In this document: positions 241-35,158 of the stretch, one piece after another
How the letters are laid out: each line of letters starts with the position of its first letter
How positions within the stretch are numbered: the stretch's first letter is position 1
DNA from: Prevotella sp.
GTDB taxonomy: Bacteria > Bacteroidota > Bacteroidia > Bacteroidales > Bacteroidaceae
Direction: 5' to 3'
Length of the DNA stretch: 35,662 nucleotides
Assembly: GCA_017557185.1 (NCBI GenBank)
Contig: JAFZAP010000033.1
Location: forward strand, 1 to 35,662
The notes under the pieces: model-generated
The model's database searches: none
Told to the model about the DNA's origin: nothing
Seen by the model: only the letters and a program-made list of their open reading frames with translations
Position numbers and translations under genes: made by a program

Positions 241-1506
241 TTATTTCGACACACCCTGCTTGAGTAGTTTGTAGTATTCGCTGCCGCCAAGGAGGAAACA
301 GCCGGTGCCGAAGTCTTCGAAGTCGGGAACGCGGGTATAAGATAAAGGTTGTCCGTCCTTGGGTTCCTTGCCCGTGCCCTGCACCCAGCCGAGGAAGCCG
401 TCAGCATGCACGCAGTCGTGCTGCAGGGCCTGCCAGGCACGGTCGCAAGCCGCGCGATACTTCTTCGCGGGAAGCAATCCATTGCGGATTCCCCAGCTCA
501 AGCCGTAGAGGAAGAGCGATGTGCCCGTGAGTTCCTTGCCTTCATAATTGCTGCTGACAAGACTCACATTCCACAATCCGTCCTCGCGCTGACATTGCAA
601 CAGTGCCTTACTCATCTTGATAAAGTCCTTACGGAGAAGACTTGAACCATTGAACGCGCGAAGCGCATTTGAACCTTGAACCTTTGTCCCTTGAACCTTT
701 GCGCCCCCCTCGCCTTTAGGAGAGGGGATGGGGGTGAGGCTTTCCATCACTCTCACCAGCGCTGCATACACCCATCCGTTGCCGCGACTCCAGTAGCATT
801 GCCGGCCGTCGGGTTCCTTGTAAGGCGGTACAAAGTCCTTGTCGCGCCACCACAATCCTTCTTTCTCGTTGAAGAGGCCGCCGGCGAGCGTGTCACGCGT
901 CCAACAGTACATCTTCATGGCATGTTCGAAATACTTCTTCTCGCCCGTAATGGTTGTCATCTGAGCATAGACAGGCATCGCCATCTGGATGGCATCGATC
1001 CACGTCCACCATCCATAAAGGTTCACGGCATTGGCTTTCGCCGTTTCCCACTCATTCTTTGGAACCAACTTTAGGTTGGGAGTGAGTAGTTGGTGGTCCA
1101 GATTCTGACGTGTAGGCAACAGCTTCTCCTCGCCTCCCACCTGCATGTAGCGCATCAGATAGGTTTGTGCGCAACACTGGTTGTCGGCATCGCAGGTGTT
1201 CACGCCGTCGCGCGGTGTCCACTGGTGGAACTCCGCCCAGCGGTCAACGTAGTCGAGATATCGCTGCTGCGGGTCGACGTCGTTGAGCGCCATCAGTCCT
1301 TCGTAATAGACGGCACGCGTCCACAATGAACTTGGACGCACCTTTTTTACATACGTCGCGCGCGTGGGATCGGCGTACTTCGCCATGAAATAATCGTTAG
1401 CACGCCGCAGGGTAGCGAGCACGTCGTCGGCTGTCGTTGTGCCTTGTGCGTGGATAGAAGCGGCAGACAGCAGCATCGCTATCCAGATAGTCATCGTCTT
1501 TCTCAT
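241..1506 (-). CDS. GH105/GH88-type unsaturated glycuronyl hydrolase, secreted
   Basis: A 421-residue protein with an N-terminal signal peptide (about residues 1-20, ending SIHAQ) and an alpha/alpha-barrel pattern of Trp- and Tyr-rich segments. Family-like motifs include DADNQCCAQTYL, WTWIDAIQMAMP and WSRGNGW. The family removes unsaturated galacturonyl residues from rhamnogalacturonan fragments made by pectin lyases, so a periplasmic pectin-degrading role is likely. The ATG at 1504-1506 is preceded by a -7 box at 1550-1557. A GC-rich palindrome plus TTGAACC repeats (about 645-740) adds roughly 30 residues, including LTPIPSPKGEGG, between the WSRGNGW helix and the FIKMSKALLQCQ helix without breaking the frame. 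The exact substrate cannot be read from the sequence. Confidence 0.85.
   Translation of the reverse strand: MRKTMTIWIAMLLSAASIHAQGTTTADDVLATLRRANDYFMAKYADPTRATYVKKVRPSSLWTRAVYYEGLMALNDVDPQQRYLDYVDRWAEFHQWTPRDGVNTCDADNQCCAQTYLMRYMQVGGEEKLLPTRQNLDHQLLTPNLKLVPKNEWETAKANAVNLYGWWTWIDAIQMAMPVYAQMTTITGEKKYFEHAMKMYCWTRDTLAGGLFNEKEGLWWRDKDFVPPYKEPDGRQCYWSRGNGWVYAALVRVMESLTPIPSPKGEGGAKVQGTKVQGSNALRAFNGSSLLRKDFIKMSKALLQCQREDGLWNVSLVSSNYEGKELTGTSLFLYGLSWGIRNGLLPAKKYRAACDRAWQALQHDCVHADGFLGWVQGTGKEPKDGQPLSYTRVPDFEDFGTGCFLLGGSEYYKLLKQGVSK
645..740. repeat. GC-rich palindrome plus TTGAACC repeats inside the GH105 gene
   Basis: Bases 704-738 form a GC-rich hairpin (CCCCTC, loop around CTTTAGG, GAGGGG) followed by GGGGGTGAGG, a member of the dispersed family described in the findings. 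Next to it, TTGAACC occurs at 669-675, 676-682 and 691-697, with a GCGC-rich palindrome at about 653-670. The whole stretch is read in frame in the hydrolase and supplies a segment that I infer is absent from relatives. Confidence 0.7.
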
Positions 1507-1549
1507 CTTGTGTTGTGATTATCGGATGGTTGTCGGTTGGAATGTTGTA

Positions 1550-1557
1550 CAAAGGTA
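1550..1557 (-). promoter_or_regulatory. Promoter -7 box of the GH105 gene
   Basis: The minus strand reads TACCTTTG, a perfect match to the Bacteroidetes TAnnTTTG box, 44 bases before the ATG. No clear -33 TTTG is visible at the expected spacing. Confidence 0.5.
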
Positions 1558-1663
1558 CATAAAAATACCTGAAAACCTTGTGTTATCGTGTTTGTGCATC
1601 ATTATTTTTAGGTATTTTTGACACAAAAAACACAAATGCCACCGAGTTGCGAAAAATTCTCAG

Positions 1664-1671
1664 TACCTTTG
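1664..1671 (+). promoter_or_regulatory. Promoter -7 box of feoAB
   Basis: TACCTTTG lies 31 bases before the feoAB ATG, matching TAnnTTTG. The -33 element is not obvious. No clear Fur box was identified by eye. Confidence 0.5.
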
Positions 1672-1702
1672 CATAAGAAAAGACAAAAGTATCAGGTAGA
1701 AG

Positions 1703-4135
1703 ATGAAACTATCGGAACTGAAGACAGGCGAAGAGGCCGTTATCGTGAAGGTATCGGGTCACGGCGGATTCCGCAAGCGCATCATCGAGATGGGCTTTGT
1801 GAATGGAAAGACGGTGGAGGTGTTGCTGAACGCTCCGCTCCAAGACCCTGTGAAATACAAGATCATGGGCTACGAAGTGTCGCTGCGCCGACAGGAAGCC
1901 GCGATGATTGAGGTGATTACCGAGGAAGAATACAAGGGAATCGAGAGCACCAGACAGGCAGAAGGCAGTAAACTGGTGTTTGAACGTTCCGAACATCAGG
2001 ACGACTACCTGCAGCACCAGGCTCTGAAGCAAAGACGCACCATCAACGTGGCTCTTGTCGGCAATCCCAACTGCGGCAAGACGTCGCTCTTCAACTATGC
2101 CAGCGGTGCCCATGCACGTGTAGGCAACTACTCGGGTGTGACCGTCGATGCCACCGAGGCACATGCTTCGTTCTTCGGTTATGAGTTTAAACTCGTTGAT
2201 CTGCCCGGCACTTATTCGCTGTCGTGCTATTCGCCCGAGGAACTCTACGTGCGCCAGCACCTGACGGAGCAGATGCCCGATGTGGTGATCAACGTCATCG
2301 ACTCGTCGAACCTTGAGCGTAACCTCTACCTGACCACGCAGTTGGTGGACATGGATATACGCCTCGTGGGGGCATTGAATATGTTCGATGAGTTTGAACG
2401 TCGTGGTGATACCGTTGATCTGAAGACGCTCAGCACGTTGTTCGGTATGCCGATGGTGCCTACGTCGTTCAAGAACGGCATGGGTGTCAAGGAACTCTTC
2501 CGTGCAGTTATTCAGGTGTATGAAGGCCGTAGCCAGGAAGCTCGCCATCTGCACATCAACTATGGTCATGAGATAGAGGACGGTATCCGCCACATACAGC
2601 AGTATCTGAAGGCCGACGAACACATCAGACTGCGCTACTCAACGCGCTATCTGGCCATCAAACTGTTAGAGAACGATACCCATGCTCTGCAATATGTGAC
2701 GCAGCACCTGGCTGAGGAAGCACGCTCTGAAGATAGCAAGCAGTTGCTTGCCTTGCGCGACACCGCTGCCGCCCGCGTACTGGAAGAAACCAACGTGGAT
2801 GCCGAGACGGCCATCATGGATGCTAAATACGGTTTTATCAATGGTGCTCTGACAGAGGCGGGATTCCTCACAGGCACGAAGGAGGACACCTATCGCACCA
2901 CGCACCTCATCGACCGCGTGCTTTCGAACCGCTGGGTAGGATTTCCCATCTTCTTCGCCATCCTGTTCCTGATGTTCCACGTGACGTTCGTGCTCGGCCA
3001 ATATCCAATGGACTGGATAGAGAAGGGCGTGGCTTGGCTGGGTAATATCATCGGCACATCGCTGCCTGAGGGACCCGTTCGAGATATGCTCATCGATGGT
3101 GTCATCGGTGGAGTAGGGTCGGTCATCGTTTTCTTGCCGCAGATTCTGATTCTCTACTTCTTCATCTCGCTCATGGAAGACTCCGGCTACATGGCGCGTG
3201 CTGCGTTCATCATGGACCGCCTCATGCACAAGATGGGCTTGCACGGCAAGTCGTTCATTCCGCTCATCATGGGCTTCGGCTGTAACGTGCCTGCTGTGAT
3301 GGCTACTCGTACCATCGAGAGCCGTCGCTCGCGACTCATCACGATGATGATTCTACCCTTCATGTCGTGTTCGGCACGCCTGCCTATCTATATTATGATT
3401 ACCGGAACGTTCTTCGCTCTGCATTACCGCTCGCTGGTGATGATCTCGCTCTATGCTATCGGCATTCTGATATCGGTCATCGTCAGCCGCATCTTCTCGA
3501 AGTTCGTTATCAAGGGCGAGGACACACCGTTCGTGATGGAATTGCCGCCCTATCGCATGCCGACCGCCAAGGCCATCGGCCGTCACACATGGGAGAAAGG
3601 CAAGGAGTATCTGAAGAAGATGGGTGGTATCATTCTCGTTGCCAGCATCATTGTTTGGGCGTTGGGCTACTTCCCCCACCACGAAGAACTCACCACGCAG
3701 CAACAGCAGGAACAGTCGATCATTGGCCATATCGGTAAGGCCATTGAACCGGTGTTTGTCCCGCAGGGCTTCAACTGGAAGCTTGATGTGAGTCTCGTAG
3801 CAGGTCTCGGTGCAAAGGAGATCGTTGCATCGACCATCGGCGTGCTGTATTCCGATAACTCCGATTATTCGGAAAGCGCCGACTCTTCCGACAATGGGGA
3901 ATCCACGGAGAACTATCAGCGCCTGCATCAGCTCATGGCGGCCGACGGCATCACTCCGCTCACCGGTTATTGTTACTTGCTCTTCGTATTGCTCTACTTC
4001 CCCTGCCTGGCCACCATCGCCGCCATCAAGAACGAGACGGGCTCATGGCGCTGGGCGGTGTTTGCAGCGGTTTATACGACGGTGGTAGCATGGATTGTCT
4101 CAGCTGCCGTATTCCAGATAGGGCAACTGTTGTAA
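1703..4135 (+). CDS. feoB: FeoA-FeoB fusion, ferrous iron transporter
   Basis: An 810-residue inner-membrane Fe(II) transporter in which FeoA and FeoB are one polypeptide. Residues 1 to about 75 are the SH3-like FeoA domain (MKLSELKTGEEA...). The G domain follows, with G1 GNPNCGKTS near residues 120-128, G3 DLPGTYS near 166 and the NMFD version of G4 near 226. The C-terminal half holds the membrane region with Gate motifs, including MEDSGYMARAAF and GFGCNVPAV. An acidic Ser/Asp-rich stretch (SDNSDYSESADSSD) lies before the last membrane segments. FeoA-FeoB fusions are common in Bacteroidetes. The gene ends 4 bases from the convergent DUF4834 gene, with no room for a terminator between them. 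Confidence 0.96.
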   Translation: MKLSELKTGEEAVIVKVSGHGGFRKRIIEMGFVNGKTVEVLLNAPLQDPVKYKIMGYEVSLRRQEAAMIEVITEEEYKGIESTRQAEGSKLVFERSEHQDDYLQHQALKQRRTINVALVGNPNCGKTSLFNYASGAHARVGNYSGVTVDATEAHASFFGYEFKLVDLPGTYSLSCYSPEELYVRQHLTEQMPDVVINVIDSSNLERNLYLTTQLVDMDIRLVGALNMFDEFERRGDTVDLKTLSTLFGMPMVPTSFKNGMGVKELFRAVIQVYEGRSQEARHLHINYGHEIEDGIRHIQQYLKADEHIRLRYSTRYLAIKLLENDTHALQYVTQHLAEEARSEDSKQLLALRDTAAARVLEETNVDAETAIMDAKYGFINGALTEAGFLTGTKEDTYRTTHLIDRVLSNRWVGFPIFFAILFLMFHVTFVLGQYPMDWIEKGVAWLGNIIGTSLPEGPVRDMLIDGVIGGVGSVIVFLPQILILYFFISLMEDSGYMARAAFIMDRLMHKMGLHGKSFIPLIMGFGCNVPAVMATRTIESRRSRLITMMILPFMSCSARLPIYIMITGTFFALHYRSLVMISLYAIGILISVIVSRIFSKFVIKGEDTPFVMELPPYRMPTAKAIGRHTWEKGKEYLKKMGGIILVASIIVWALGYFPHHEELTTQQQQEQSIIGHIGKAIEPVFVPQGFNWKLDVSLVAGLGAKEIVASTIGVLYSDNSDYSESADSSDNGESTENYQRLHQLMAADGITPLTGYCYLLFVLLYFPCLATIAAIKNETGSWRWAVFAAVYTTVVAWIVSAAVFQIGQLL

Positions 4136-4139
4136 GGGA

Positions 4140-4379
4140 TTATTCTTCCGTATACTCTACGTATTCGCCTTCGTCCTTCGGGATGATCTTCTTCGACGCG
4201 TCCTCTGGCGAACGACGGTCGATGACCACGTTGCCATCGACATGTGTCTGCTGCTGGCTGCCTTGCTCGCGGAAGTGGCGGTAGCCGCTCTTCACTTGTT
4301 GCCAGACCGACAACAAGAATATCGCAATGGCGACGACGCCGAAGATGAAGAGAAAAAACAGGAACTTCAGGATAATCAT
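4140..4379 (-). CDS. DUF4834 family small membrane protein
   Basis: A 79-residue protein with one N-terminal hydrophobic helix (about residues 2-24). A polar linker rich in Gln follows, then a conserved-looking acidic tail KKIIPKDEGEYVEYTEE. The tail and overall shape match the DUF4834 family of Bacteroidetes as I recall it; its function is unknown. The start lies 3 bases after the pssA stop, so it is almost certainly the last gene of the psd-pssA operon. This suggests, but does not show, a link to envelope lipids. Confidence 0.8.
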   Translation of the reverse strand: MIILKFLFFLFIFGVVAIAIFLLSVWQQVKSGYRHFREQGSQQQTHVDGNVVIDRRSPEDASKKIIPKDEGEYVEYTEE

Positions 4380-4382
4380 AGG

Positions 4383-5120: not shown

Positions 5121-5164
5121 TGGGAAGGTTTTTATTTCTAGATGGCCTAGATATTCTAGAAGTT

Positions 5165-19656: not shown

Positions 19657-19674
19657 GAAAGCGGCAGAGCCGAG
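19657..19674. repeat. Short dispersed repeat GAAAGCGGCAGAGCCGAG, copy 1
   Basis: The 18-base motif occurs here, in the gap between the porin and BASS genes, and twice more at 27050-27067 and 27247-27264. Similar T/C-rich flanks (CTTTCTCC or CTTTCCCC) precede each copy. Confidence 0.7.
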
Positions 19675-22696: not shown

Positions 22697-25174
22697 ATGG
22701 ATTACACCGACATCGTCATACGCGGAGCCAGCGAGAACAACCTGAAGAACGTCTCGCTGTCGTTGCCAAAGCATAAAATCACGGTTTTCACTGGAGTCTC
22801 GGGCTCGGGCAAGAGTTCTCTCGTTTTCGACACCATCGCGGCAAAGTCGCGGCGAGAGCTCAACGACACGTTCCCGACTTTCGTACAACAGTATCTGCCG
22901 AAATACGGCCGTCCGCATGTAGATAGCATCGAGAATCTGCCCATTGCCATCGTCATCGATCAGAAGAAGCCCGCACAGAACTCGCGCTCCACGGTGGGCA
23001 CCTACACCGATATCGCTGCCCTGATGCGATTGTTGTTCTCGCGTGTGGGAAAGCCCTTTGTGGGTTATGCCGAGTCGTTCTCGTTCAATCACCCCGAGGG
23101 CAGTTGTCCGCGCTGTTCGGGACTGGGCGAGATACGCGAGCTGGACATCCACAAGCTCGTTGACTTCGACAAGAGTCTGAACGACGAGGACACCATCCAC
23201 TACATCGCCTTCGGCAAGGGTGGCTGGCGCTGGATTCGCTATGCCCACAGCGGTCTCTTCGACCTCGACAAGAAGATTCGCGACTATAGTCCTGAGGAAC
23301 TCGACTTGTTCCTGAACAGTCCGCAGATACGCTTGAAGAACCCGCCCGCCAACTGGCCGAAGACCGCGAAGTATGAAGGTATCATCCCGCGCATGTACCG
23401 TTCCATCATCAACTCCGAGGAAGGCCTGCTGCATGCCGCCGTACTAAATCCGATGCTGCGCATGGGCACTTGCCCCGACTGTGGCGGCACGCGTCTGGCT
23501 CCGCGGGTGCTGAAGTGCAGAATCTCTCCCCAGGAGGGCCAGGAAGGGGCTTCACTCAATATTGCCGAAGCCTCTGCACTCAGCATCACACGGCTGAATC
23601 GGTGGATTAAGAGCATCGGCGACCCGCTGGCCGAAGACCTGAAAGCGGCCATCAGCGCACGCCTCACTGCGCTCGAGGAGATTGGCTTGGGCTATCTCAG
23701 CCTTGACCGTGCTGTTGGAACGCTCTCGGGCGGCGAGGCGCAGCGATGTAAGATAGCGAAGTATATCAATTCTTCACTCTCCGATGTGCTCTACATTCTC
23801 GACGAGCCCAGCACCGGTCTGCACAATCACGACATCCAGCTGATGAAGCGCTCTATCCAACGACTGCGCGATGCAGGCAACACCGTGCTCCTCGTCGAAC
23901 ACCACAAGGAGATGATCCGCATGGCCGACCACATCGTGGACCTCGGTCCGGGACCGGGCATCGACGGAGGACACATCGTCTTCGAAGGCACCTACGATGA
24001 ACTACTGCAAAGCCACACCGCCACAGGCGAGATGCTGCAGCGCACAGGAGATTTCAAGGCGAACCCCCGACAGCCGCAGACAATCTTCCCCCTTCGGCAT
24101 GCCAGTCTGCACAACCTGCAGGACATCTGCATCGATCTGCCGCTGGGTGTGTTTGCCGTCATCGCAGGCGTGGCGGGCTCGGGCAAGAGTTCGCTGATGG
24201 AGAGTTTTCAAAAACCCACCCCCAACCCCTCCCAAGGGGAGTGGAACTTGGATACCCTTTCTAATAGAAGCACTGAAGCAATAACTAATATGACTCCCCA
24301 CCCCTCGGGAGGGGCTGGGGGTGGGTTTATCTACATCTCTCAGAAGAACATCGGTGTGAGCCTGCGCTCCACTCCTGCCACCTATATGGATGTGGCGCCC
24401 GACATTCGGAAGATGTTCGCGCGCAAGTACAAGCTGAAGGAATCCTTTTTCACCTTCAACGGACAGGGTGCCTGCCCTGTCTGCGGCGGAAAAGGCGTCA
24501 TCGTCTCCGAGATGGCATTCATGGACAACATTGAAACCGTCTGCGATGCCTGCGGAGGACTGCGCTACTCGAAGGAAGCGCTGCAGTACAGGCTCTCTCC
24601 CCAACCCCTCCCCAAAAAGGAGGGGAGTGGAATGCCTTCATTGAGTAGTGCTTCCCAGTTTGAAAGACCATCTACTCCCCTCCCTTATAGGGAGGGGCAG
24701 GGGGGTGGGTCTTCTCTCTCTATCGCCGAAGTCTTTGACCTCAGCGTACGCCTCGCCTCCAACTTCTTCCGTGGAACAGTCATCGAGGAGAAGCTGCGGC
24801 CACTCATGGACGTCGGACTCGGCTACCTGCACCTGAACCAGGCGCTCTCCACACTCTCGGGCGGTGAACTGCAACGCATGAAGATTGCCTCCTACCTTGC
24901 CGAGAAGGGAAAGACATTCATCATCGACGAACCCACCGACGGACTGCACCCGAAGGATGTTCAGCGACTCGTCAACCTCTTCGAACAGATGGTCAACGAA
25001 GGAAACACCGTTTATGTTGTTGAGCACAACACCGATGTCATCAAGGCTGCCGACTATGTCGTTGAACTCGGACCGGGTGCCGGCGAACAAGGTGGCTGCA
25101 TCCTCTTTGCCGGACAGCCGCACGACCTGCTCGGCTGTCCCGCCAGCGTCACAGCCCGCTACCTTAAGGAATAG
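22697..25174 (+). CDS. Short UvrA-like ABC ATPase with two in-frame repeat insertions
   Basis: An 825-residue UvrA paralogue carrying two ABC ATPase halves. Half 1 has Walker A GVSGSGKSS (about residue 34), signature LSGGEAQR (343) and Walker B LYILDEPSTGLH (365). Half 2 has GVAGSGKSS (491), LSGGELQR (719) and FIIDEPTDGLH (741). CxxC pairs CPRC, CPDC, CPVC and CDAC suit zinc modules. It is shorter than canonical UvrA (about 940) and seems to have a reduced UvrB-binding region, as in UvrA2/resistance-type paralogues, so classical excision repair is uncertain. About 80 residues come from GC-rich palindromes (residues 506-544 and 633-672); without them the protein would be near 745. Confidence 0.9.
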   Translation: MDYTDIVIRGASENNLKNVSLSLPKHKITVFTGVSGSGKSSLVFDTIAAKSRRELNDTFPTFVQQYLPKYGRPHVDSIENLPIAIVIDQKKPAQNSRSTVGTYTDIAALMRLLFSRVGKPFVGYAESFSFNHPEGSCPRCSGLGEIRELDIHKLVDFDKSLNDEDTIHYIAFGKGGWRWIRYAHSGLFDLDKKIRDYSPEELDLFLNSPQIRLKNPPANWPKTAKYEGIIPRMYRSIINSEEGLLHAAVLNPMLRMGTCPDCGGTRLAPRVLKCRISPQEGQEGASLNIAEASALSITRLNRWIKSIGDPLAEDLKAAISARLTALEEIGLGYLSLDRAVGTLSGGEAQRCKIAKYINSSLSDVLYILDEPSTGLHNHDIQLMKRSIQRLRDAGNTVLLVEHHKEMIRMADHIVDLGPGPGIDGGHIVFEGTYDELLQSHTATGEMLQRTGDFKANPRQPQTIFPLRHASLHNLQDICIDLPLGVFAVIAGVAGSGKSSLMESFQKPTPNPSQGEWNLDTLSNRSTEAITNMTPHPSGGAGGGFIYISQKNIGVSLRSTPATYMDVAPDIRKMFARKYKLKESFFTFNGQGACPVCGGKGVIVSEMAFMDNIETVCDACGGLRYSKEALQYRLSPQPLPKKEGSGMPSLSSASQFERPSTPLPYREGQGGGSSLSIAEVFDLSVRLASNFFRGTVIEEKLRPLMDVGLGYLHLNQALSTLSGGELQRMKIASYLAEKGKTFIIDEPTDGLHPKDVQRLVNLFEQMVNEGNTVYVVEHNTDVIKAADYVVELGPGAGEQGGCILFAGQPHDLLGCPASVTARYLKE
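24212..24328. repeat. 117-bp GC-rich element inside the UvrA-like gene, copy A
   Basis: AAACCCACCCCCAACCCCTC at the left end is repeated inverted at the right end, with a 22-bp terminal match and one mismatch. About 70 bp of non-repeat sequence lies between. The total of 117 bp is 39 codons, so the frame is kept. It adds PTPNPSQGEW at one end and TPHPSGGAGGG at the other, just after the second Walker A and before YISQKNIGVSLRS. Confidence 0.88.
24593..24712. repeat. ~120-bp GC-rich element inside the UvrA-like gene, copy B
   Basis: It has the same plan as copy A. The left end is CCCCAACCCCTCCCC then GGAGGGGAGTGG; the right end is CTCCCCTCCC then GGGAGGGGCAGGGGGG, in inverse orientation. The encoded ends are SPQPLPKKEGSG and STPLPYREGQGGG. 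It lies between EALQYR and SIAEVFDL, where relatives are normally contiguous as far as I recall. Boundaries are uncertain by a few bases. Confidence 0.82.
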
Positions 25175-25214
25175 GGGCCTCCCCCGACCCCTCCAAGTAG
25201 AGGGGAGCCACGAA
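25174..25214. repeat. GC-rich family member, left half of a 41-bp perfect inverted pair
   Basis: It begins with the last base of the UvrA-like stop codon. The exact reverse complement occurs at 27121-27161. The internal hairpin is CCCCTC, loop CAAGTA, GAGGGG. Confidence 0.9.
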
Positions 25215-26288: not shown

Positions 26289-26702
26289 AATTTTGTTTGT
26301 TTAAAATGTTTATTATTAATTTTGAATATCTTTCATCCCGACGTGGGAGTTCTCTTATTTGTTGGCGTCCGTACGTTAGACACAAAATTGTTCGATTTGT
26401 GACACTTTTCAGTGCTAATTTTTCTTAATTCTTGTCTTGTTGCTTTGTCTGTTAGACGCAACGGGTTGAGAAAAAGTTGCAGCAGATGCAGTTTTTCGTT
26501 CAGAATAATGACAAAGAGACAAAGAGTTTATTTATCCACAGATTACACCGATTACTCAGATTTCTAAGGAATGCAGGAATTGAAGGATACGAATGAAACG
26601 GATGAAATAGGATCATGGAGGAGATGGTGTTTCTCACCATCGTCACACGTTCGATAGAGTCTGCATGACAAATGCGGCCCCCCTCTAATCCCCCAAGCTA
26701 CC

Positions 26703-26735
26703 CTCGCCTTTCGGAGAGGGGCTGGGGGTGAGGCC
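26703..26735. repeat. GC-rich palindrome family member
   Basis: CCCTCGCCTTTCGGAGAGGG followed by GCTGGGGGTGAGG. Closely similar to the copy inside the GH105 gene at 704-738 (CGCCTTT, GGAGAGGGG, GGGGGTGAGG). Confidence 0.8.
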
Positions 26736-27049: not shown

Positions 27050-27067
27050 GAAAGCGGCAGAGCCGAG
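27050..27067. repeat. Short dispersed repeat GAAAGCGGCAGAGCCGAG, copy 2
   Basis: Identical 18-base motif to 19657-19674. A partial inverted copy (CGGGCCGCTTTCAGA) lies about 25 bases to its left. Confidence 0.7.
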
Positions 27068-27120
27068 CGCGTGTTCGACTCTTTGTCTCTCTGTCTTATG
27101 ATGGAAGATTTTGCGTCCCC

Positions 27121-27161
27121 TTCGTGGCTCCCCTCTACTTGGAGGGGTCGGGGGAGGCCCC
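27121..27161. repeat. GC-rich family member, right half of a 41-bp perfect inverted pair
   Basis: Exact reverse complement of 25174-25214 over 41 bases. The pair encloses about 1.9 kb containing the DUF3836-like gene. Confidence 0.9.
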
Positions 27162-27246: not shown

Positions 27247-27264
27247 GAAAGCGGCAGAGCCGAG
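27247..27264. repeat. Short dispersed repeat GAAAGCGGCAGAGCCGAG, copy 3
   Basis: Identical motif to copies 1 and 2, again preceded by a CTTTCCCC-type flank. Confidence 0.7.
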
Positions 27265-27498: not shown

Positions 27499-27574
27499 CG
27501 GGATTTAGCGCAGTTGGTAGCGCACACGTCTGGGGGGCGCGAGGTCGCTGGTTCGAGTCCAGTAATCCCGACCA
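27499..27574 (+). tRNA. tRNA-Pro (anticodon GGG)
   Basis: Full cloverleaf: acceptor CGGGATT/AATCCCG, D-stem GCGC/GCGC, anticodon loop CTGGGGG with GGG at 27532-27534, T-stem GCTGG/CCAGT with loop TTCGAGT, and encoded CCA at 27572-27574. The anticodon stem CACGT/GCGCG has an A-C mismatch at positions 28-42 and a T-G wobble at 31-39, so it is weaker than normal. A promoter and a terminator flank it. The 3' half is the left copy of a 52-bp direct repeat. Confidence 0.93.
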
Positions 27575-27581
27575 AACGTAA
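27530..27581 (+). repeat. Left copy of a 52-bp direct repeat (att-like)
   Basis: It is identical over 52 bases to 28852-28903. It runs from the first base of the tRNA-Pro anticodon loop through CCA and 7 bases beyond. This is the typical extent of a tRNA attachment site for a tyrosine integrase. Confidence 0.85.
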
Positions 27582-27617
27582 AAGACCGAGAATCATATGA
27601 TTCTCGGTCTTTTTTTG
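27581..27617 (+). terminator. Perfect hairpin terminator after tRNA-Pro
   Basis: A 32-base perfect palindrome (27581-27612, core GAATCATATGATTC) is followed by a run of T to 27617. Confidence 0.85.
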
Positions 27618-27657
27618 TTTTTATGTGTACATCACATTTCCCTCTGGTTGACGCGTT

Positions 27658-27690
27658 GGTTTACTCCAAAAGTAAACCGAGAAGTAAACC
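27658..27690. promoter_or_regulatory. AGTAAACC motif cluster, left (possible integrase arm sites)
   Basis: AGTAAACC at 27671-27678 and 27683-27690 (12-bp period), plus an inverted GGTTTACT at 27658-27665. The same pair with the same period lies inside the right att-like repeat. Arm-type sites are an inference. One frame reads SKPRSKP at both places, so decayed coding sequence is the alternative. Confidence 0.5.
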
Positions 27691-27818
27691 AAATTTATGG
27701 AAGCAACAATTTCAGTAGTAGAGTTGCCTTTCGTAGGTAGCTCTCTTTTTTGATTTTATCCTTTTTTAGCCCCAAATGTTAAAAAGTCCTTTCTGTACAT
27801 AAGAATTTATTACTATTA

Positions 27819-27850
27819 TTTGCTTTTTGTTTACTAATTAGTTATCTTTG
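27819..27850 (+). promoter_or_regulatory. Promoter of the toxin-antitoxin pair
   Basis: TTTG at 27819-27822, 20 bases, then TATCTTTG at 27843-27850: a near-perfect Bacteroidetes promoter 17 bases before the toxin ATG. Confidence 0.65.
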
Positions 27851-27867
27851 CAAAAAAATAATGCACT

Positions 27868-28221
27868 ATGCCGAAAAGAGAATATATAAGAACCATTGTT
27901 GCATACAAGGACTACTTCAAAAACTTCAAGCGGACAGTTTCTCAACAAGTGCTTGACAAGTTTTACGAGATATTCCTCTATATCATGACTTTGGAAGTGA
28001 TTCCAAGCACCTATTTTAGATCAATAGAAGGCGTGAAAGGCTTATTTGAGATTCGTGTAGAAGAAGGTGGAAACATCTATCGAGTGTTTTGCTGTTTCGA
28101 CGATGGAAACTTAGTGGTGCTTTTCAATGCATTTCACAAGAAAGCTCAGAAGACACCTCCTAACGAGATTGCCAAAGCGAAACGAATAATGAAAGAATAT
28201 TTTGATAACAAAAACAAGTAA
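27868..28221 (+). CDS. HigB/RelE-like toxin (Gp49/DUF891 type)
   Basis: A 117-residue basic protein. The pattern YRSIEGVKGLFEIRVEEGGNIYRVFCCFDDGNLVVLFNAFHKKAQKTP is typical of the RelE/HigB fold, with a FEIR strand, a YRVFCCF strand and a HKKAQKTP tail carrying basic residues. Such toxins cleave mRNA on the ribosome. The stop is 4 bases before the antitoxin ATG, and toxin-first order is the higBA arrangement. The DNA is AT-rich compared with neighbouring housekeeping genes, suggesting acquisition. It sits between the two tRNA-Pro repeats. Confidence 0.9.
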   Translation: MPKREYIRTIVAYKDYFKNFKRTVSQQVLDKFYEIFLYIMTLEVIPSTYFRSIEGVKGLFEIRVEEGGNIYRVFCCFDDGNLVVLFNAFHKKAQKTPPNEIAKAKRIMKEYFDNKNK

Positions 28222-28225
28222 TAAT

Positions 28226-28534
28226 ATGAACAGAGAAGAAATGAAACGGCTGAATCTTACACCTATTGAAGATTTTATTACTGAAGATCATGGTGAAGAG
28301 GGGACGCCTACGAGAATCGAGTTTGAAACTCGTGTGGATGCTTTCATCTTGGGAGAACGACTCAAAGAAGAGCGTCGTAAAGCAGGACTGACCCAAGAGC
28401 AGCTTGCAGAAATAATTGGAACCAAGAAAAGCTATATATCCCGTGTTGAGAATGGACATGCAGACATACAGGTGTCAACATTATTTAAGATTTTCCAAGG
28501 GCTAGGAAGAAGGGTGAGTTTTACAATTTTGTGA
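28226..28534 (+). CDS. XRE-family antitoxin of the HigBA-type pair
   Basis: A 102-residue protein whose C-terminal half is a helix-turn-helix (LGERLKEERRKAGLTQEQLA, then IIGTKKSYISRVENG). The N-terminal half is acidic and could wrap the toxin. It should bind and inactivate the toxin and repress the shared promoter. I chose the ATG at 28226 over a TTG at 28202, which would overlap the toxin end. A GAGAATCC/GGATTCTC hairpin lies downstream at 28581-28613 but lacks a T tract. Confidence 0.9.
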   Translation: MNREEMKRLNLTPIEDFITEDHGEEGTPTRIEFETRVDAFILGERLKEERRKAGLTQEQLAEIIGTKKSYISRVENGHADIQVSTLFKIFQGLGRRVSFTIL

Positions 28535-28694
28535 TGCAGAAAATAACATACGTTACATACCTGCAAAACAAGTGATTGCAGAGAATCCCATATTTCAGAA
28601 TTGACGGATTCTCACAGACTCCAACTTACTTAAATAAATTACATTCATCCTGAAAATAATTGGGCAAAAGTGCTTTTATGTCGACAATTTTTTG

Positions 28695-28702
28695 TAACTT
28701 TG
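28695..28702 (+). promoter_or_regulatory. Promoter-like -7 box before the defective tRNA copy
   Basis: TAACTTTG is identical to the tRNA-Pro promoter box and part of a longer shared TTTGTAACTTTGCA. It lies 122 bases before the defective copy, much further than for the intact tRNA. Confidence 0.4.
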
Positions 28703-28767
28703 CAATGATTCCGTAAGGGATTAAAGCGAGAGTAATTAAATTTATGTTTCATCAATCGGTGAACGAA

Positions 28768-28787
28768 AGTAAACCAAGAAGTAAACC
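28768..28787. promoter_or_regulatory. AGTAAACC motif pair, right (possible integrase arm sites)
   Basis: AGTAAACC at 28768-28775 and 28780-28787, with the same 12-bp period and a nearly identical linker as the left cluster. It lies 64 bases inside the right 52-bp repeat. Confidence 0.5.
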
Positions 28788-28824
28788 GAGAGAAAACAAT
28801 AAAGCGTAATCAATTGATTTTCAG

Positions 28825-28896
28825 TGGGATTTAGCGCAAGCTGGCTAGCTCCTGGGGGGCGCGAGGTCGCTGGTTCGAGTCCAGTAATCCCGACCA
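28825..28896 (+). pseudogene. Defective tRNA-Pro copy (att-like)
   Basis: The acceptor (TGGGATT/AATCCCG), T-arm and CCA are kept, and GGGATTTAGCGCA matches the intact gene. The D-arm is altered (AAGCTGGCTAGCTC) and the 5' strand of the anticodon stem is missing, so no functional cloverleaf can form. Bases 28852-28903 repeat 27530-27581 exactly. Confidence 0.82.
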
Positions 28897-28903
28897 AACG
28901 TAA

Positions 28904-28981: not shown

Positions 28982-29016
28982 TCCCCCTTCCCTTCAGGGA
29001 GGGGACGGGGGTAGGC
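28982..29016. repeat. GC-rich palindrome family member
   Basis: CCCTTCCCTTCAGGGAGGGG followed by ACGGGGGTAGG. It is nearly the same as the copy in the dockerin-like region at 29540-29579 (CCCTTCAGGGAGGGG, GGGGGTAGG). Confidence 0.85.
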
Positions 29017-29017
29017 C

Positions 29018-29164: not shown

Positions 29165-32100
29165 TCATTGCAACTCATTGATTGCTGCATTGAGTATTTC
29201 TATTTTTTCATTGAGTTCATTCCCTTTTACTTGGCATACTACCACATCATACTCAGAACTCACGCTTTCCAATTGTTCTTGCAGTGCAGTTATCAAGGCC
29301 TCAATCTCACTTGCCATTTGCCAGAGAGCATCCTGAGCATGTCCGCTGTCCTTTGATTCGAGTTCTGCTTTCGCCATTTCATAAGACGCTTCAATCTTAG
29401 CCATTTGTGCATGCAGAACTTCTATTTCCATCATGAAATTCTCCAAATCTATTTTTCCGAGCAAATACTCGACAATGATCTTCGTATCGTCAATCGTGAC
29501 GGAGCCGCTCAGGTTCACATCCGCAGCCTGGAGGTTGTACCCATCTCCCATCCCTTCAGGGAGGGGCTGGGGGTAGGCTATCAGATAATTGGTCAGGGCC
29601 GTGATGTCAGCCACGTCCACCTTGCTGTCACCGTTCACGTCGCCCAGCAGGAACGCGGGCTTGTAGGTGAAGTAACCCGGATCGCTTGTGCCGCCGTCGA
29701 TATGGGCATACGCCGCTTCCGTGTGGTTGTCGTCGTAGGCCGTGCCCTTGCCGCCTACAAGGCTTGTGCAGCCGGTGAACATATTGTATGAATAGGTCAC
29801 GGCGGCAGTACTCCAACCATCGCCAACGTAGATAGTCCGCATGTTGTTGCAGCCATAGAACATCCAACTGAAATTTGTAATGTTCGACGTGTTGAAGTGG
29901 CTCAGGTCGAGGGTGGTCAGGCCGCTACAATCACAGAACATGTAAAACATATCGGTCATGTTCGCTGTGTTGAAGTTGCTCACGTCAAGACTCGTCAGGC
30001 CACTGCAGCCGTCAAACATAGCATACATGCTCGTCACATTCTTCGTATTGAAGTGGCTCAGGTTCAGGCTGGTCAGGCCTGTGCAACCGTTGAACATTTT
30101 GTGCATGCTCGTCACGTTCTCCGTGTTGAAGTTGCTCAGGTCGAGGGTGGTCAGGCCTGTGCAACCGCTGAACATTTCGCGCATGCTGGTCACATTCTTC
30201 GTATTGAAGTGGCTCAGGTCGAGGGTGGTCAGGCTGCTGCAGTATTGGAACATTTCGCGCATGTCCGTCACATTCGACGTGTTGAAGAGACTCAAGTCGA
30301 GGCTGGTCAGGCTGCTGCAACCGATGAACATTTCGTACATGCTCGTCACATTCGACGTGTTGAAGTGGCTCAGGTCGAGGCTGGTCAGGCTGCTGCAGCC
30401 ATAGAACATACCATACATGTTCGTCACCTCACTGGTATTGAGGTACTCGATGCCCGTGATGCTGGTCAGTTTTGACATTAGGGCGAACCAACCAACGGTA
30501 CTCGTGGGCCTAGCATCAGCAAACGACTCATGGAACACCACAGAAGTAACATTCGCATAGCTTAAATCGCGATACCAAGCGGGAAGAGTGCTGCCCTCGT
30601 TCAGATCATACACCGTCTCCGTCGTTGCGTTGTGTGATACCTGCTGGCCGTCCTTATAGAATGTCAGCGTAGTGTTGCTGGAGTCATAGACGACATATGG
30701 TTTTGTTGCCACAGTGAAATATCCCGGGTTATCCGTTCCGCCGTCGATATGGGCATAGGCCACATCCGTGTGGTTTGCGTCGTAGGCCGTGCCCTTGCCA
30801 CCCACAAGGCTTGTGCAGCCTTGGAACATCTCGACTGAATTGGTCACGGCTGCGGTACTCCATCCGCTGCCCACATAGATGGTTTTCAAGTTTTCAGTTG
30901 AATAGAACATGTTACACATATCGGTCACCTTGGCGGTGTTGAAGTTGCTCAGGTCAAGGCTGATCAAGCCGCTACAATCATAGAACATGCTGTTCATGCT
31001 GGTCACATTCGATGTGTTGAAGTTGCTCACATTGAGGCTCGTCAGGCTAGTGCAGTTAGAGAACATGCCGTTCATGTTCTTCACCTTTCTGGTGTTCAGA
31101 TATTCGATGCCAACGATGCTGGTCAGTTCGAACATTTTATCGAACCATCTGCTGGTTCTAATCGGCCGTGCATTGGCAAACGACGGGTCGAATACCACAG
31201 TGGTAACATACTTATAATTACCATCAGTACTCCAGACAGGCCATTCTTCTTCCTCGTCCAGATCATACACCTTCTCCGTCGTTGCGTTGTGCGATGCCCG
31301 CTGGCCGTCGTTGTATAACGTCAGCGTGGTGTTGCTGGAGTTATACACGGCATAGGGTTTTGTTGATTCAGTGAAATAGCCTGGGTTATCGGGGCCGCCG
31401 TCGATGTGGGCATAGGTAGAAAAGGTCTGGTTTTTGTCATAGGTCGTTCCCATACCGCCAACAAGTTTTTCACAATTGTTGAACATAGCCGGGATCGCAG
31501 ATGTACTAAGTCCCGCTGTAGTCCAGCCGTTACCGACAAAGATGGTGATAATGGAATTGCAACTATTGAACATATAAATCATGTTGGTCACATTAGCCGT
31601 ATTGAAACTGCTCAGGTCAAGACTTGTCAAGGACATGCACTGATAGAACATGTTACTCATGTCGGTCACATTGCACGTGTTGAAATCACTCAGGTCGAGG
31701 CTTGACAAACTGTAGCAAGAAGCGAACATGGCATACATTTCAATTACCTTCTCGGTGTTGAAGTGGCTCAGGTCGAGGCTGGTCAGTCTGCTGCAGCCAT
31801 TGAACATGCTTCTCATGGTCGTCACCTCACTGGTATTGAGGTACTCGATGCCCGTGATGGTGGTCAGGTATTCCATTCCGAAGAACCAAACATAGGTACT
31901 CGTGGGACGGGCATCAGCAAACGACTCATGGAACACTACCTTGGTTACATTCGCATAGCTACCATCGCTGTACCAACCTGGATCATTACTTCCCTCGTTC
32001 AGATCATACACTTTCTCCGTCTCTCCGTTGTGCGATGCCCGTTGGCCGTCGTGATAGAATGTCAGAGTATTGTTGCCGGAGGTATAGACAACATAGGGTT

Positions 32101-35100
32101 TTGGCGGTGCAGTGAAATATCCCGGGTTATCCGTGCCGCCGTCGATATGGGCATAGGCCTTATCCACATGACTGGCATCATAAGTCGTGCCCATGCCACC
32201 CTTGATGTTGGTACAGCCGCTGAACATTCCATCGGAATCTTCAATGCCGCCTTCATCCCAACCGTCACCCACATAGATGGTCGTCAGGTTCGAACAACCA
32301 CCGAACATATAGTTGGTTAAAAGCAAGTCGGAAGTGTCGAAGGAACTCAGGTCGAGAGCCGTCAGACTGCTGCAACCAGAGAACATGCTACTCATATCAC
32401 ACACATGGCTCGTGTTGAAGCCACTCAGGTTGAGATTCGTCAGGTAGGTGCAGTCAATGAACATCTGTTTCATAATTTCTGCCTCGCGCGTGTCGAAGTT
32501 GCTCAGGTCGAGGCTGGTCAGACCGACGCAGTCGAAGAACATATCCTTGAAACTCTTCACGTTCTGTGTGTTGAAGTTGCTCAGGTCGAGCGATGTCAGG
32601 GCGCTACTCTCATAGAACATTCCTTCCATATACCTCACGTTCTGCGTGTCGAAGCTGCTCACGTTGACACTCGTCAGGTAACCATTGTCACCGAACATAT
32701 AGCTCATGTCCGTCACGTTCGATGTGTCGAAGGTGCTCAGGTCGAGAGATTCCAGTTCTGTGGAGCCGAACATATAGCTCATGTCTGTCACCTCGCTGGT
32801 GTTCAGGTATTCAAGTCCCGTGATATTGTTCAGCCAATACACCATGTAGAACCACTTATACGTCGTTGTCGGCCGTGCATCAGCAAACGAGGGATCAAAT
32901 ATCACTGTCGTGATATCTTTGTTGCCGTATTGACCAAGCCAGCCAGGATTCTGCTTGTCTGTGTTCAAATCATACACCAGCACCCCCTCTCCGTTGTGGG
33001 ATGAACGCTCTCCGTCATAGTAGAACGTCAGCGTAGTGTTGCTGGAGTCATAGACGGCATAGGGTTTTGGCGCTTCAGTGAAATATCCCGGGTTATCCGT
33101 GCCGCCGTCGATGTGGGCATAGGCCACATCCGTGTTATTCTCATCATAGGTCGTGCCCATGCCGCCCGTGATTCTCTCACAGCCGTAGAACATCATTGTT
33201 GATGATGTGACTGCCTCCGTAGTCCATTTATCACCCACATAGATAGTTTTGAGCGATGAATCAAATGAAAACATGCCAGACATATTTGTTACGTTCTCGG
33301 TTGAGAAGCTACTCAAATCAAGCTCTTCGGCAACGCAAAACGCGAACATGGCACTCATGTCAGACACATTCCTGGTGTCAAAGCTACTCAAGTCGGCAGT
33401 AAGCACACCAGAGCAATCATTGAACATGGACTTCATGGTTGTCACCTCACTTGTGTTCAGGTAAATCAATCCATCAATAGTGACGAGGTTAAACATCGAA
33501 CTGAACCATTCGGCAGTACTTGTGGGGCGCGCATCAGCAAATGAAGGGTCGAACACAACTCGTGTGACCGACGTATTGCTACCGTCAGCACACCATCCCG
33601 GCTCTTCATTTCCCTCGTTCAGATTATACACCTTCTCCGTCGTTGCGTTGTGCGACGCCTGCTGGCCGTCATTGTAGAACGTCAGCGTGGCGGTGCTGGA
33701 GTCGAACACTACATAATAAGGAGGACACCCCATGGTCACTTCCTCGATATTGCTCCACCCACTCTCCTTTCCATCGGCATAGAGCGCCTTAACCATGTAC
33801 TGGTAGGTGCTGCCGGCTTCAAGGTTCTCGACCGTATAGAACTTGTTGGTGATGCCGGAAATCAATTGACCCTCGGCATTTCCAATTGCATATACCTCCA
33901 TCAAGGCAATATCTGGTGAGGTTTCACTGTCGGTTGTGTATACGGTAATCTTCTCACCAGAGCTGGCAGTTACCAACCAAGTATAGGTTTCTTCAGCTAC
34001 GAAGTTGTGACCCACAGCAGTGGTCTGGGGGGTATAGACGGTGTAGTTGCCAGCAGCATAGGAACCCGAGCCCGTAGTAATCAACAACGAGAACGTAGCA
34101 TTTATGTAACCCTCGGGTATCGTGTAGGTGATATATCCGGTAGGATGGCCATTATAGTTGTTCTTGACATAGATGGCACCCTTGCCACCGCGCACGTTGA
34201 CGCCACCCCATGGAGCAGGTAATGTGATATCGGCATAGCTATCGGTGTACCAACTTCCATACAACGAAGCCAGCAACATCGACTCATCAATCTTGGGATT
34301 GACCGCAAGGGTGTAACTGGCCACATTAGCCTCGGTGGTCTCATCAGTCCAGTCGGCACGGAATGAGGTCAAACCAATGTAATCCTCATTGGCAGGCAAC
34401 ATCACGGGATCATATTTCGCCCCATTAGTGAAGTAGCCTGGGTTGCTCGTGCCGCCATCTAGGTGGGCATAGGCCACATCCGTGTGGTTGGCGTCGTAGA
34501 CCGTGCCCTTGCCACCCACGAGGCTCGTGCAGCCAAGGAACATCTCGACTGAATTGGTCACGGCTGCAGTACTCCATCCGTTGCCCACATAGATAGTTTC
34601 CAACTGGTCGCTGTTAGTGAACATTCCGGTCATGTTAGTCACTTTGGCCGTGTTGAAACTGCTCAGGTCTAGACTTTTTAAAACCAGATCAGAAAACATC
34701 CAACTCATGTCGGTCACCTCACTGGTGTTCAAATATTCCATGCCAGTGATGGATTGAAGACTTTTCATGTCAAAAAACCATGAGCGGGTGGTTGTCGGGC
34801 GCGCATCAGCAAACGATGAATCGAAGACCACTTCGGCAATGTAAGTATAAATACCGTCGCTAACCCAACCGGGGCTGCCAGAGTCGCTGTTCAGGTTGTA
34901 GGTCCTGTCGTTTCGGGTGCTGCGCAGGTCGTCATAATAGAACGTAAGCGTCGCGTTCGAAAAGGCGAAGCAGGCATATGCCTCCTGTGCCGAGGCGGTG
35001 ACAGCCCACCCCCAACCCCTCCCTAAGGGAGAGGAGAAAATAAAGAAGGCAAGGAGGAGCCAACCCCAGACCCGATTCAAATGGAGGGGAGAAAGCCCCA

Positions 35101-35158
35101 CCCAGACCCTCCCCCGAAGGGAGGAACGTAAATGATTAAAGAATGCTTTGGTTTTCAT
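29165..35158 (-). CDS. BspA-like leucine-rich-repeat surface protein with dockerin-like domain
   Basis: A 1997-residue exported protein. Six related modules start near residues 62, 481, 698, 1018, 1266 and 1483. Each opens with a TLTFYxDGQ strand region, continues with BspA/DUF285 repeats (SLDLSxFNTSNVTDMxxMF) and ends AYAHIDGGTDNPGYFT. A fibronectin-III-like region lies between modules 1 and 2 (about 243-479). Then come two dockerin-like calcium loops (DVNGDSKVDVAD and DVNLSGSVTIDD, about 1838-1905) and a C-terminal coiled coil. No LPxTG or clear T9SS sorting domain is seen. BspA proteins act in adhesion. The ATG at 35158 is chosen because the -7 box at 35198-35205 excludes the longer form. 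Four GC-rich repeats lie inside the frame. Confidence 0.9.
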   Translation of the reverse strand: MKTKAFFNHLRSSLRGRVWVGLSPLHLNRVWGWLLLAFFIFSSPLGRGWGWAVTASAQEAYACFAFSNATLTFYYDDLRSTRNDRTYNLNSDSGSPGWVSDGIYTYIAEVVFDSSFADARPTTTRSWFFDMKSLQSITGMEYLNTSEVTDMSWMFSDLVLKSLDLSSFNTAKVTNMTGMFTNSDQLETIYVGNGWSTAAVTNSVEMFLGCTSLVGGKGTVYDANHTDVAYAHLDGGTSNPGYFTNGAKYDPVMLPANEDYIGLTSFRADWTDETTEANVASYTLAVNPKIDESMLLASLYGSWYTDSYADITLPAPWGGVNVRGGKGAIYVKNNYNGHPTGYITYTIPEGYINATFSLLITTGSGSYAAGNYTVYTPQTTAVGHNFVAEETYTWLVTASSGEKITVYTTDSETSPDIALMEVYAIGNAEGQLISGITNKFYTVENLEAGSTYQYMVKALYADGKESGWSNIEEVTMGCPPYYVVFDSSTATLTFYNDGQQASHNATTEKVYNLNEGNEEPGWCADGSNTSVTRVVFDPSFADARPTSTAEWFSSMFNLVTIDGLIYLNTSEVTTMKSMFNDCSGVLTADLSSFDTRNVSDMSAMFAFCVAEELDLSSFSTENVTNMSGMFSFDSSLKTIYVGDKWTTEAVTSSTMMFYGCERITGGMGTTYDENNTDVAYAHIDGGTDNPGYFTEAPKPYAVYDSSNTTLTFYYDGERSSHNGEGVLVYDLNTDKQNPGWLGQYGNKDITTVIFDPSFADARPTTTYKWFYMVYWLNNITGLEYLNTSEVTDMSYMFGSTELESLDLSTFDTSNVTDMSYMFGDNGYLTSVNVSSFDTQNVRYMEGMFYESSALTSLDLSNFNTQNVKSFKDMFFDCVGLTSLDLSNFDTREAEIMKQMFIDCTYLTNLNLSGFNTSHVCDMSSMFSGCSSLTALDLSSFDTSDLLLTNYMFGGCSNLTTIYVGDGWDEGGIEDSDGMFSGCTNIKGGMGTTYDASHVDKAYAHIDGGTDNPGYFTAPPKPYVVYTSGNNTLTFYHDGQRASHNGETEKVYDLNEGSNDPGWYSDGSYANVTKVVFHESFADARPTSTYVWFFGMEYLTTITGIEYLNTSEVTTMRSMFNGCSRLTSLDLSHFNTEKVIEMYAMFASCYSLSSLDLSDFNTCNVTDMSNMFYQCMSLTSLDLSSFNTANVTNMIYMFNSCNSIITIFVGNGWTTAGLSTSAIPAMFNNCEKLVGGMGTTYDKNQTFSTYAHIDGGPDNPGYFTESTKPYAVYNSSNTTLTLYNDGQRASHNATTEKVYDLDEEEEWPVWSTDGNYKYVTTVVFDPSFANARPIRTSRWFDKMFELTSIVGIEYLNTRKVKNMNGMFSNCTSLTSLNVSNFNTSNVTSMNSMFYDCSGLISLDLSNFNTAKVTDMCNMFYSTENLKTIYVGSGWSTAAVTNSVEMFQGCTSLVGGKGTAYDANHTDVAYAHIDGGTDNPGYFTVATKPYVVYDSSNTTLTFYKDGQQVSHNATTETVYDLNEGSTLPAWYRDLSYANVTSVVFHESFADARPTSTVGWFALMSKLTSITGIEYLNTSEVTNMYGMFYGCSSLTSLDLSHFNTSNVTSMYEMFIGCSSLTSLDLSLFNTSNVTDMREMFQYCSSLTTLDLSHFNTKNVTSMREMFSGCTGLTTLDLSNFNTENVTSMHKMFNGCTGLTSLNLSHFNTKNVTSMYAMFDGCSGLTSLDVSNFNTANMTDMFYMFCDCSGLTTLDLSHFNTSNITNFSWMFYGCNNMRTIYVGDGWSTAAVTYSYNMFTGCTSLVGGKGTAYDDNHTEAAYAHIDGGTSDPGYFTYKPAFLLGDVNGDSKVDVADITALTNYLIAYPQPLPEGMGDGYNLQAADVNLSGSVTIDDTKIIVEYLLGKIDLENFMMEIEVLHAQMAKIEASYEMAKAELESKDSGHAQDALWQMASEIEALITALQEQLESVSSEYDVVVCQVKGNELNEKIEILNAAINELQ
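29540..29579. repeat. GC-rich repeat between the two dockerin-like loops
   Basis: CCCATCCCTTCAGGGAGGGG plus CTGGGGGTAGG, read in frame on the minus strand as AYPQPLPEGMGDGY. It lengthens the linker between the two calcium loops of the BspA-like protein. Confidence 0.85.
35004..35125. repeat. Three GC-rich repeats in the BspA signal-peptide coding region
   Basis: Copies in the same orientation lie at about 35004-35035 (CCCACCCCCAACCCCTCCC...), 35059-35091 (degenerate: CAACCCCAGACCC, then GGAGGGGAG) and 35095-35125 (CCCCACCCAGACCCTCCCCC, GGGAGG). On the minus strand they encode SSLRGRVWVGLSPL, NRVWGW and SSPLGRGWGW around the hydrophobic LLLAFFIF core. Confidence 0.85.

Follow-up and report, generated by a model that had tools for sequence, protein, structure and literature searches.

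GC-rich palindromes translated inside Prevotella genes resemble the ends of a probably mobile DUF559-nuclease element

What are the short GC-rich palindromes that recur within and between the genes of a Prevotella sp. contig, and how do they come to be read in frame inside conserved genes? The window analyzed here is the whole 35,662-nucleotide stretch of contig JAFZAP010000033.1 (assembly GCA_017557185.1; positions 1-35,662, forward strand). An earlier note on this DNA had marked 13 copies, and all 13 bear one pattern: a C-rich arm (e.g., CCCACCCCCAACCCCTCCC), a short loop and a G-rich arm (GGGAGGGG), with borders that vary by a few bases depending on the method. The note had also placed at least eight copies inside three long genes without frameshift or stop; we count nine, in a GH88 gene, a UvrA-like ATPase gene and a leucine-rich repeat (LRR)/dockerin gene.

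The palindromes are probably the ends, single, paired or enclosing a nuclease gene, of a homing-nuclease element that is translated without splicing and is itself probably mobile. They would serve as terminal inverted repeats for a small mobile element whose only gene encodes DUF559, a Vsr/EDxHD-like nuclease of homing type. Full elements would lie in frame inside conserved genes, or be fused to or wedged at gene starts, where they would be translated rather than spliced, with the end palindromes becoming Pro/Ser/Gly-rich linkers. The copies in the window would then be nuclease-less forms, namely inverted pairs (in UvrA) and solo ends. The components of this proposal that sequence comparison itself shows are the end-nuclease-end anatomy, the in-frame fusions, the clades formed largely by host site, the patchy distribution among hosts and two palindrome-only ispF fusions.

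The first clue was a palindrome pair elsewhere in the source genome that encloses an apparent DUF559 gene. A family search of this genome yielded seven PF04480 matches, six of them strong. All six strong genes lie between inverted palindromes, both by eye and by a palindrome profile seeded with the 13 window copies and the ends of five of these six elements, while the seventh, weak match (L025) has no palindrome flanks. The one element not used as a seed (L024) was still recovered (11.8 and 10.9 bits). An arm-to-arm score independent of the profile passes five of the six (L019-L023) and not L024. As a rough control, bracketing by an inverted pair was found in 2 of 285 called frames, and a flank score above 16 in 2 of 280; the 285 frames hold no separate DUF559 gene because the caller missed the L019 gene and merged the L020 gene into a fused frame. 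The palindrome family described in the earlier note is confirmed; its match to the terminal inverted repeats of DUF559-nuclease elements had been missed.

The association extends beyond this genome. DUF559 is present in 28 of 60 genomes and in 174 of 298 genomes of the genus, the source genome being included in both sets. Among 113 distinct DUF559 loci (114 rows, L182 and L236 being the same place; for the genus, the top-scoring loci were taken, and partial domains were dropped), 92 have paired terminal ends scoring above all 1140 shuffles. Element length has a median of 557 bp over the 97 rows scoring above 14 and is usually about 430-730 bp. Across 36 genomes of the same genus, the number of strict palindromes correlates with the number of DUF559 matches (rho 0.59, p 1.4e-4; the count for G030 includes one match at E 2.1e-20), and DUF559 occurs in 10 of the 13 genomes with at least seven palindromes versus 5 of the other 23. 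Furthermore, end sequence and nuclease covary (Mantel r 0.47 across all pairs and 0.39 when only pairs at different sites are taken), as expected if both travel together.

The palindromes themselves form a dispersed family. The profile recovers all 13 window copies at 11 bits or more, a result that is partly circular for these copies, which served as seeds; most other places in the 435 kb of source genome searched (window included) are non-seeds. This search gave 101 matches of at least 8 bits at 82 distinct places, or about 630 per genome when scaled up, versus none in a first-order Markov control of the same length, in which the best score was 6.7 bits. Chance low complexity is ruled out by this control as the source of the palindromes. 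A strict pattern occurs 82 times in the source genome and not once when read backwards, and it is present in 23 of the 60 genomes, source genome counted; the copies are therefore not confined to the window, and such confinement was an outcome that the earlier note had named as refuting its case. The comparison of intragenic with intergenic copies that it proposed, made with genes called by a simple codon-score method, assigns 27 of the 82 places to gene interiors with coding signal on both sides and 33 to intergenic DNA, with 20 in an open reading frame (ORF) near its end and 2 overlapping a gene end. Its description is supported: a palindrome family dispersed through a Bacteroidales-type genome, whose in-frame copies are tolerated and yield Pro/Ser/Gly/Glu peptide. 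Neighboring palindromes no more than 200 bp apart form 19 pairs (8 head-in inverted, 11 tandem and no head-out), compared with 3.7 pairs of all kinds under random placement.

Such numbers also recall repetitive extragenic palindromic (REP) sequences and REPINs, their inverted doublets, which would be moved by a REP-associated tyrosine transposase (RAYT, or TnpA-REP), a Y1 enzyme, and would leave DUF559 as a passenger or secondary user. Head-in inverted pairs do resemble REPINs, and Y1_Tnp matches occur in 40 of the 60 genomes, including the source genome with three. The RAYT partner with matching ends anticipated in the earlier note was sought in the source genome and the 60-genome set and did not materialize. 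None of the three source-genome Y1_Tnp matches is bounded by a palindrome pair; a single palindrome lies about 1 kb from one of them. Palindrome number is uncorrelated with Y1_Tnp number across the 36 same-genus genomes (rho -0.07), and the palindrome-rich genomes G019 (47 copies) and G023 (22 copies) have no Y1_Tnp match. On these three grounds a RAYT was rejected as the partner of the palindromes, and we regard a classical REP/REPIN system as improbable.

How the DUF559 element sits in its hosts is seen most clearly in single open frames. In the source genome, Pfam places DUF559 inside PriA (L022) and ahead of IspF (L020), RpiB (L023) and RNase H (L024); a fusion with leucyl-tRNA synthetase (LeuRS) was also detected by Pfam. 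Two further domains lie just before genes read, from translations only, as GpsA (L019) and aminopeptidase P (L021). Alignment to solved structures in the Protein Data Bank shows PriA residues 389-542 inserted between chain positions 360 and 363 of 4nl4, and LeuRS residues 299-440 between positions 236 and 242 of 1h3n. A second LeuRS stretch missing from 1h3n in the alignment (residues 152-210 in L153) is separate from the DUF559 insert. Frames of at least 200 amino acids were counted by eye in about 40 of the best 150 genus matches listed and occur in 54 of the 113 studied loci, a share biased upward because some sets of loci were chosen for long frames. At least 60 residues of open frame flank DUF559 on both sides in 19 of 114 rows, of which about 16 were read as truly internal. 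The internal hosts comprise PriA, LeuRS (two families, same place), an ABC-F ATPase (two species, same place), helicases, aminotransferases and others, host names being read from translations except where tested by Pfam.

Start codons were examined at the fusions to gene fronts. No ATG separates nuclease from enzyme core in any of 13 ispF fusions, and 7 of these lack GTG and TTG as well; the same absence of ATG holds for 6 of 8 gmk and 3 of 7 rnhA fusions, and the single rpiB fusion does have an ATG there. Unfilled ispF genes mostly begin M-x-R-VGxGxDVH, and in filled genes the palindrome reads directly into the VGxGxDVH core. A palindrome lies upstream of 5 of 45 unfilled ispF genes, and in two of these (L312 and L324) it is fused to the enzyme without DUF559; these two may be either relics or separate gains. 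Fusions are not only assembly chimeras, because they are also found in assemblies with just one or two contigs (G016, G120, G268 and G302). Splicing was considered at both protein and RNA level. Seven proteins that bear the element have no protein-splicing Pfam family at E 1e-3, and an intein identity was rejected on this basis; a group I or II intron was likewise rejected, as no Rfam family reaches gathering score at any of 16 element loci. Of known RNAs, the window yields only a tRNA.

The presumed nuclease-less form is exemplified by the UvrA-like ATPase gene of the window (22697..25174, plus strand; an ORF of 825 amino acids, matching solved UvrA 7sh1 at E 2.7e-181). It contains two inverted palindrome pairs in frame on the same strand: the first, a nuclease-less form of the element, spans 117 bp (24212..24328; copies 24212-24240 and 24295-24328, both 18.6 bits against the palindrome profile) and the second 120 bp (24593..24712; copies 24593-24630 and 24671-24712, 19.6 and 21.1 bits). 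The corresponding protein inserts exceed the majority columns by 33 and 38 residues, at core positions 500 and 594, respectively. Orthologue comparison, as the earlier note had advised, was run for UvrA on 81 rows, i.e., the window plus 80 orthologue loci mostly from rumen Prevotellaceae and other Bacteroidales, one row (L031) being a short piece only. Counted from the listing, an insert of at least 8 residues at core positions 448-449, 500-501 or 594 occurs in 24 of 81 rows (23 of 80 orthologues); the other 57 have none at these three sites, so the inserts are missing in most orthologues. Both window inserts fall into gaps of the alignment to 7sh1. A moderate-quality AlphaFold model (mean pLDDT 67.6) shows both as low-confidence coil, which is weak support because six native stretches appear likewise. 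The second insert seems to be homologous to the one in L026, and it would accordingly have been kept in frame through some divergence.

The UvrA inserts differ in kind, as palindrome pairs in the window, L033, L049 and L079, and as unrelated repeats, by comparison of the DNA, at position 594 of L049 and in L091. Variable surface loops might therefore simply gather any low-complexity repeat, palindromes included, and repeats such as SKLKVQSSKLKVESS and SSSSETL in the same UvrA loops of other species speak for that explanation. Loop tolerance is insufficient as a full explanation because of the 33 intergenic places; the same palindrome family also bounds DUF559 genes, and tolerance accounts for where inserts survive, not for their nature. 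We give it very little credence. Separately, the L049 UvrA insert contains a duplication similar to one in the source genome (L013, about 1490-1651 of that locus on contig C11), where an in-frame palindrome pair in an apparent GH2 beta-galactosidase has an internally duplicated spacer.

If the DUF559 element homes, copies at one host site should resemble alleles. A tree was built from 112 DUF559 domains (L236 and L136b were left out, and L024 was labelled 'none' despite being an RNase H fusion); it is based on few columns and has many open forks and weak deep support. Site labels require 2 changes for 13 rows at ispF, 3 for 8 at gmk, 2 for 6 at rnhA, and 1 each at abcF and leuS. Over all labels, 25 changes are needed versus 47.6 when shuffled, and none of 200 shuffles was as low. 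The elements at these five sites appear to resemble intein alleles, largely clustering by site. The hosts are patchy: ispF is present in 291 of 298 genomes, with fusion-length frames in 7 of about 150 listed, and on an IspF tree, for which 20 extra loci with fairly long frames were picked, 10 changes account for the 14 filled hosts compared with 12.6 shuffled.

The same trees bear on purely vertical descent, in which old DUF559 fusions were gained once per site and lost many times, no homing took place and the palindromes are mere spacer-like remnants. Distances between nucleases track those between their hosts at ispF (r 0.48) and rnhA (r 0.73), with no such relation at gmk (0.04); filled ispF hosts show slight clustering, being scattered but not random (19 of 500 shuffles as low); and the leuS elements of the two families are sisters. 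Part of the pattern is vertical inheritance, as the correlated distances and the slight clustering indicate. A wholly vertical history is harder to reconcile with 10 changes for 14 filled ispF hosts, with a DUF559 domain at ispF conserved as well as IspF itself in several pairs, and with hundreds of palindromes at other sites. We consider it unlikely, albeit the most credible of the alternatives.

Conservation of the nuclease raises a further alternative. Against solved proteins, DUF559 matches 3hrl (endonuclease-like) at E 3e-20 and, over residues 65-122 only, 3r3p ('Mobile intron protein') at E 6e-4; the latter we take to be the EDxHD homing endonuclease I-Bth0305I. Across 112 rows, the candidate active-site residues E31, D59, E70, D72 and H76 show 99-100% conservation, suggesting that selection maintains a working enzyme. 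This conservation would also suit a domain domesticated as a useful addition to DNA- or nucleotide-related enzymes, with palindromes as convenient linkers, and some hosts (PriA, RNase H, helicases) do handle nucleic acids. Metabolic hosts (IspF, RpiB, guanylate kinase) are equally frequent, presence is patchy, and a domesticated domain would not need paired inverted ends, making domestication highly improbable.

For the mobile nuclease element, a cycle can be proposed. The nuclease would cut either the unoccupied allele or its own palindromes, after which repair would copy the element in; selection would retain in-frame inserts, and loss of the host's own start would make the element hard to lose. 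Pairs and solo copies may arise via internal deletion or by spread in trans. Several observations weigh against this account, among them the host correlations and the ispF clustering given above. Clear paired ends are lacking at 21 of 113 DUF559 loci, and a mispaired control was passed by only 81 of 114 rows at the 95th percentile and 48 of 114 at the 99th, a control that is conservative because the ends of different loci are related. Three of the 13 palindrome-rich genomes (G022, G027 and G032) have no DUF559 match, and five palindrome-poor ones have it. Elements at the shared sites C218, hel and degT1 do not cluster by site, and inspection of the ispF and UvrA junctions by eye did not settle the exact borders or a target-site duplication. 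Finally, we infer cleavage, movement and homing, as well as the origin of solo copies from full elements, from sequence rather than from direct observation.

Similar arrangements occur outside Bacteroidota. Relatives were found in 43 plasmid records; among the 17 examined, all from other phyla (Cyanobacteriota, Deinococcota and Pseudomonadota), paired ends exceed their own 300 shuffles in 10 and do not in 7. In Sphingomonas, DUF559 precedes a transhydrogenase subunit gene by 1 nt and sufC by 2 nt; in Deinococcus psychrotolerans, it lies between paaD and paaZ; and in Pseudanabaena, it is within one long annotated coding sequence. A DUF559 gene on Sinorhizobium meliloti pSymB (L329) has near-identical inverted flanks of about 114 nt and adjoins an ISRm16 transposase gene. 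A broader proposal, which we put at even chances, is that bacteria harbor a separate class of mobile element, consisting of the homing nuclease DUF559 with REP-type ends, in frame and unspliced, whose ends double as peptide linkers and which captures the start codon or frame of important genes and so becomes hard to lose. Its decay products (pairs and solo copies) would be a main source of GC-rich REPs in Bacteroidota and other phyla, and DUF559 would be a candidate partner for REP families with no known transposase.

The remaining window palindromes are solo or tandem. In the GH88 gene (241-1506, minus strand), which Pfam matches in two stretches with the best ending at residue 257, a solo copy at 704..738 (minus strand, 20.0 bits, internal) is read in frame as LTPIPSPKGEGG. 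Just past 738 on the same strand, a second kind of repeat (AAAGTTCAAAGTT-like, read SKLKV or KVQGTKVQG) is also in frame; it recurs in the L049 UvrA insert at core position 594, standing beside or replacing palindromes. Four solo copies are intergenic according to the simple gene caller: 25174..25214 (plus strand, 16.5 bits), which begins at the UvrA stop codon, and 26700..26735, 27121..27161 and 28982..29016 (all minus strand; 22.1, 16.0 and 22.4 bits). The first has a near-identical inverted copy at 27115-27161, with 47-nt arms that are 96% complementary. In the LRR/dockerin gene (29165-35200, minus strand), one copy at 29540..29579 (minus strand, 23.5 bits, internal) is in frame in the dockerin-like part, the dockerin match covering residues 1852-1914. 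Three tandem copies at 35004..35125 (plus strand; 22.3, 11.4 and 11.3 bits) lie in the ORF near its end, and according to the translation they supply much of the signal-peptide-like N-terminus of the LRR protein.

Other repeats in the window are of different kinds. An array of an AT-rich 22-nt repeat (GTAAATTAACTTA...) with long inverted symmetry occupies 1-157, and a separate dispersed 18-nt repeat, GAAAGCGGCAGAGCCGAG, occurs at 19657-19674, 27050-27067 and 27247-27264. The 3' parts of two tRNA-Pro(ggg) calls within 27499-28903 are identical over 52 nt (27530-27581 and 28852-28903). Gp49-like and helix-turn-helix genes (27868-28534) are enclosed by these repeats, an arrangement resembling a small tRNA-targeted island that carries a toxin-antitoxin pair.

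REPs are common in bacterial genomes, and a non-RAYT gene bracketed by like palindromes in several phyla makes the question of their partner testable. IspF, guanylate kinase, PriA and LeuRS are apparently produced with a nuclease of some 120 residues joined on through element-encoded linkers, which amounts to a natural experiment; IspF is essential. If the proposal is true, a selfish gene persists in an important gene without an intron or intein, and some fused 'DUF559 domain-containing' annotations are explained.

Among known systems, Rickettsia palindromic elements (RPEs) are likewise translated in frame in many genes, and in-frame insertion into coding genes is found here at the 27 internal places. 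The RPE-like reading of the earlier note holds as a likeness of behavior; a bracketed nuclease gene is not known to be part of RPEs. EDxHD/Vsr-like homing endonucleases (3r3p) resemble the DUF559 element in nuclease sequence, and its patchy hosts and its site-wise clades, seen at five shared sites and not at three, recall those of homing alleles; unlike them, it has no intron (16 loci) or intein (seven proteins) around the nuclease. In fungal mitochondria, homing nucleases of other families, not known to carry REP-type ends, are fused in frame to host genes without splicing. Paired terminal inverted repeats, as at the 92 DUF559 loci, are shared with miniature inverted-repeat elements (MITEs) and transposons that end in such repeats.

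REP/REPIN systems with a RAYT share short palindromes in hundreds of copies, single copies and inverted pairs above chance, and an enzyme gene bracketed in the full form; unlike there, the bracketed gene here encodes a DUF559 nuclease, not a Y1 tyrosine transposase. CGTC- and GTAG-tagged REPs have been described inside genes, in frame, single or as dimers, in uvrA, recB and tRNA synthetase genes (Di Nocera 2013, PMC3733652), and the same survey includes one superfamily without an apparent dedicated transposase. The portions of that survey consulted report no nuclease partner, and the ends here start with (A/G)CC(C/T)CACCCC or similar; no GTAG or CGTC tags were seen by eye, short of a systematic scan, in the window copies or the listed arms of DUF559 elements. 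Caulobacter VsrA is a protein of the same DUF559 domain, a predicted Vsr-like endonuclease able to damage DNA and described in mismatch repair (PMC12907096); palindromic ends and in-frame fusion are not mentioned in the parts of that report consulted. In-frame REPs as such are known. Searches of open-access literature, outside which most subscription papers fall, turned up no report of a link between palindromes and DUF559, of a translated element or of allele-like clades, and the open-access papers that mention DUF559 are, by their listing, not about REPs.

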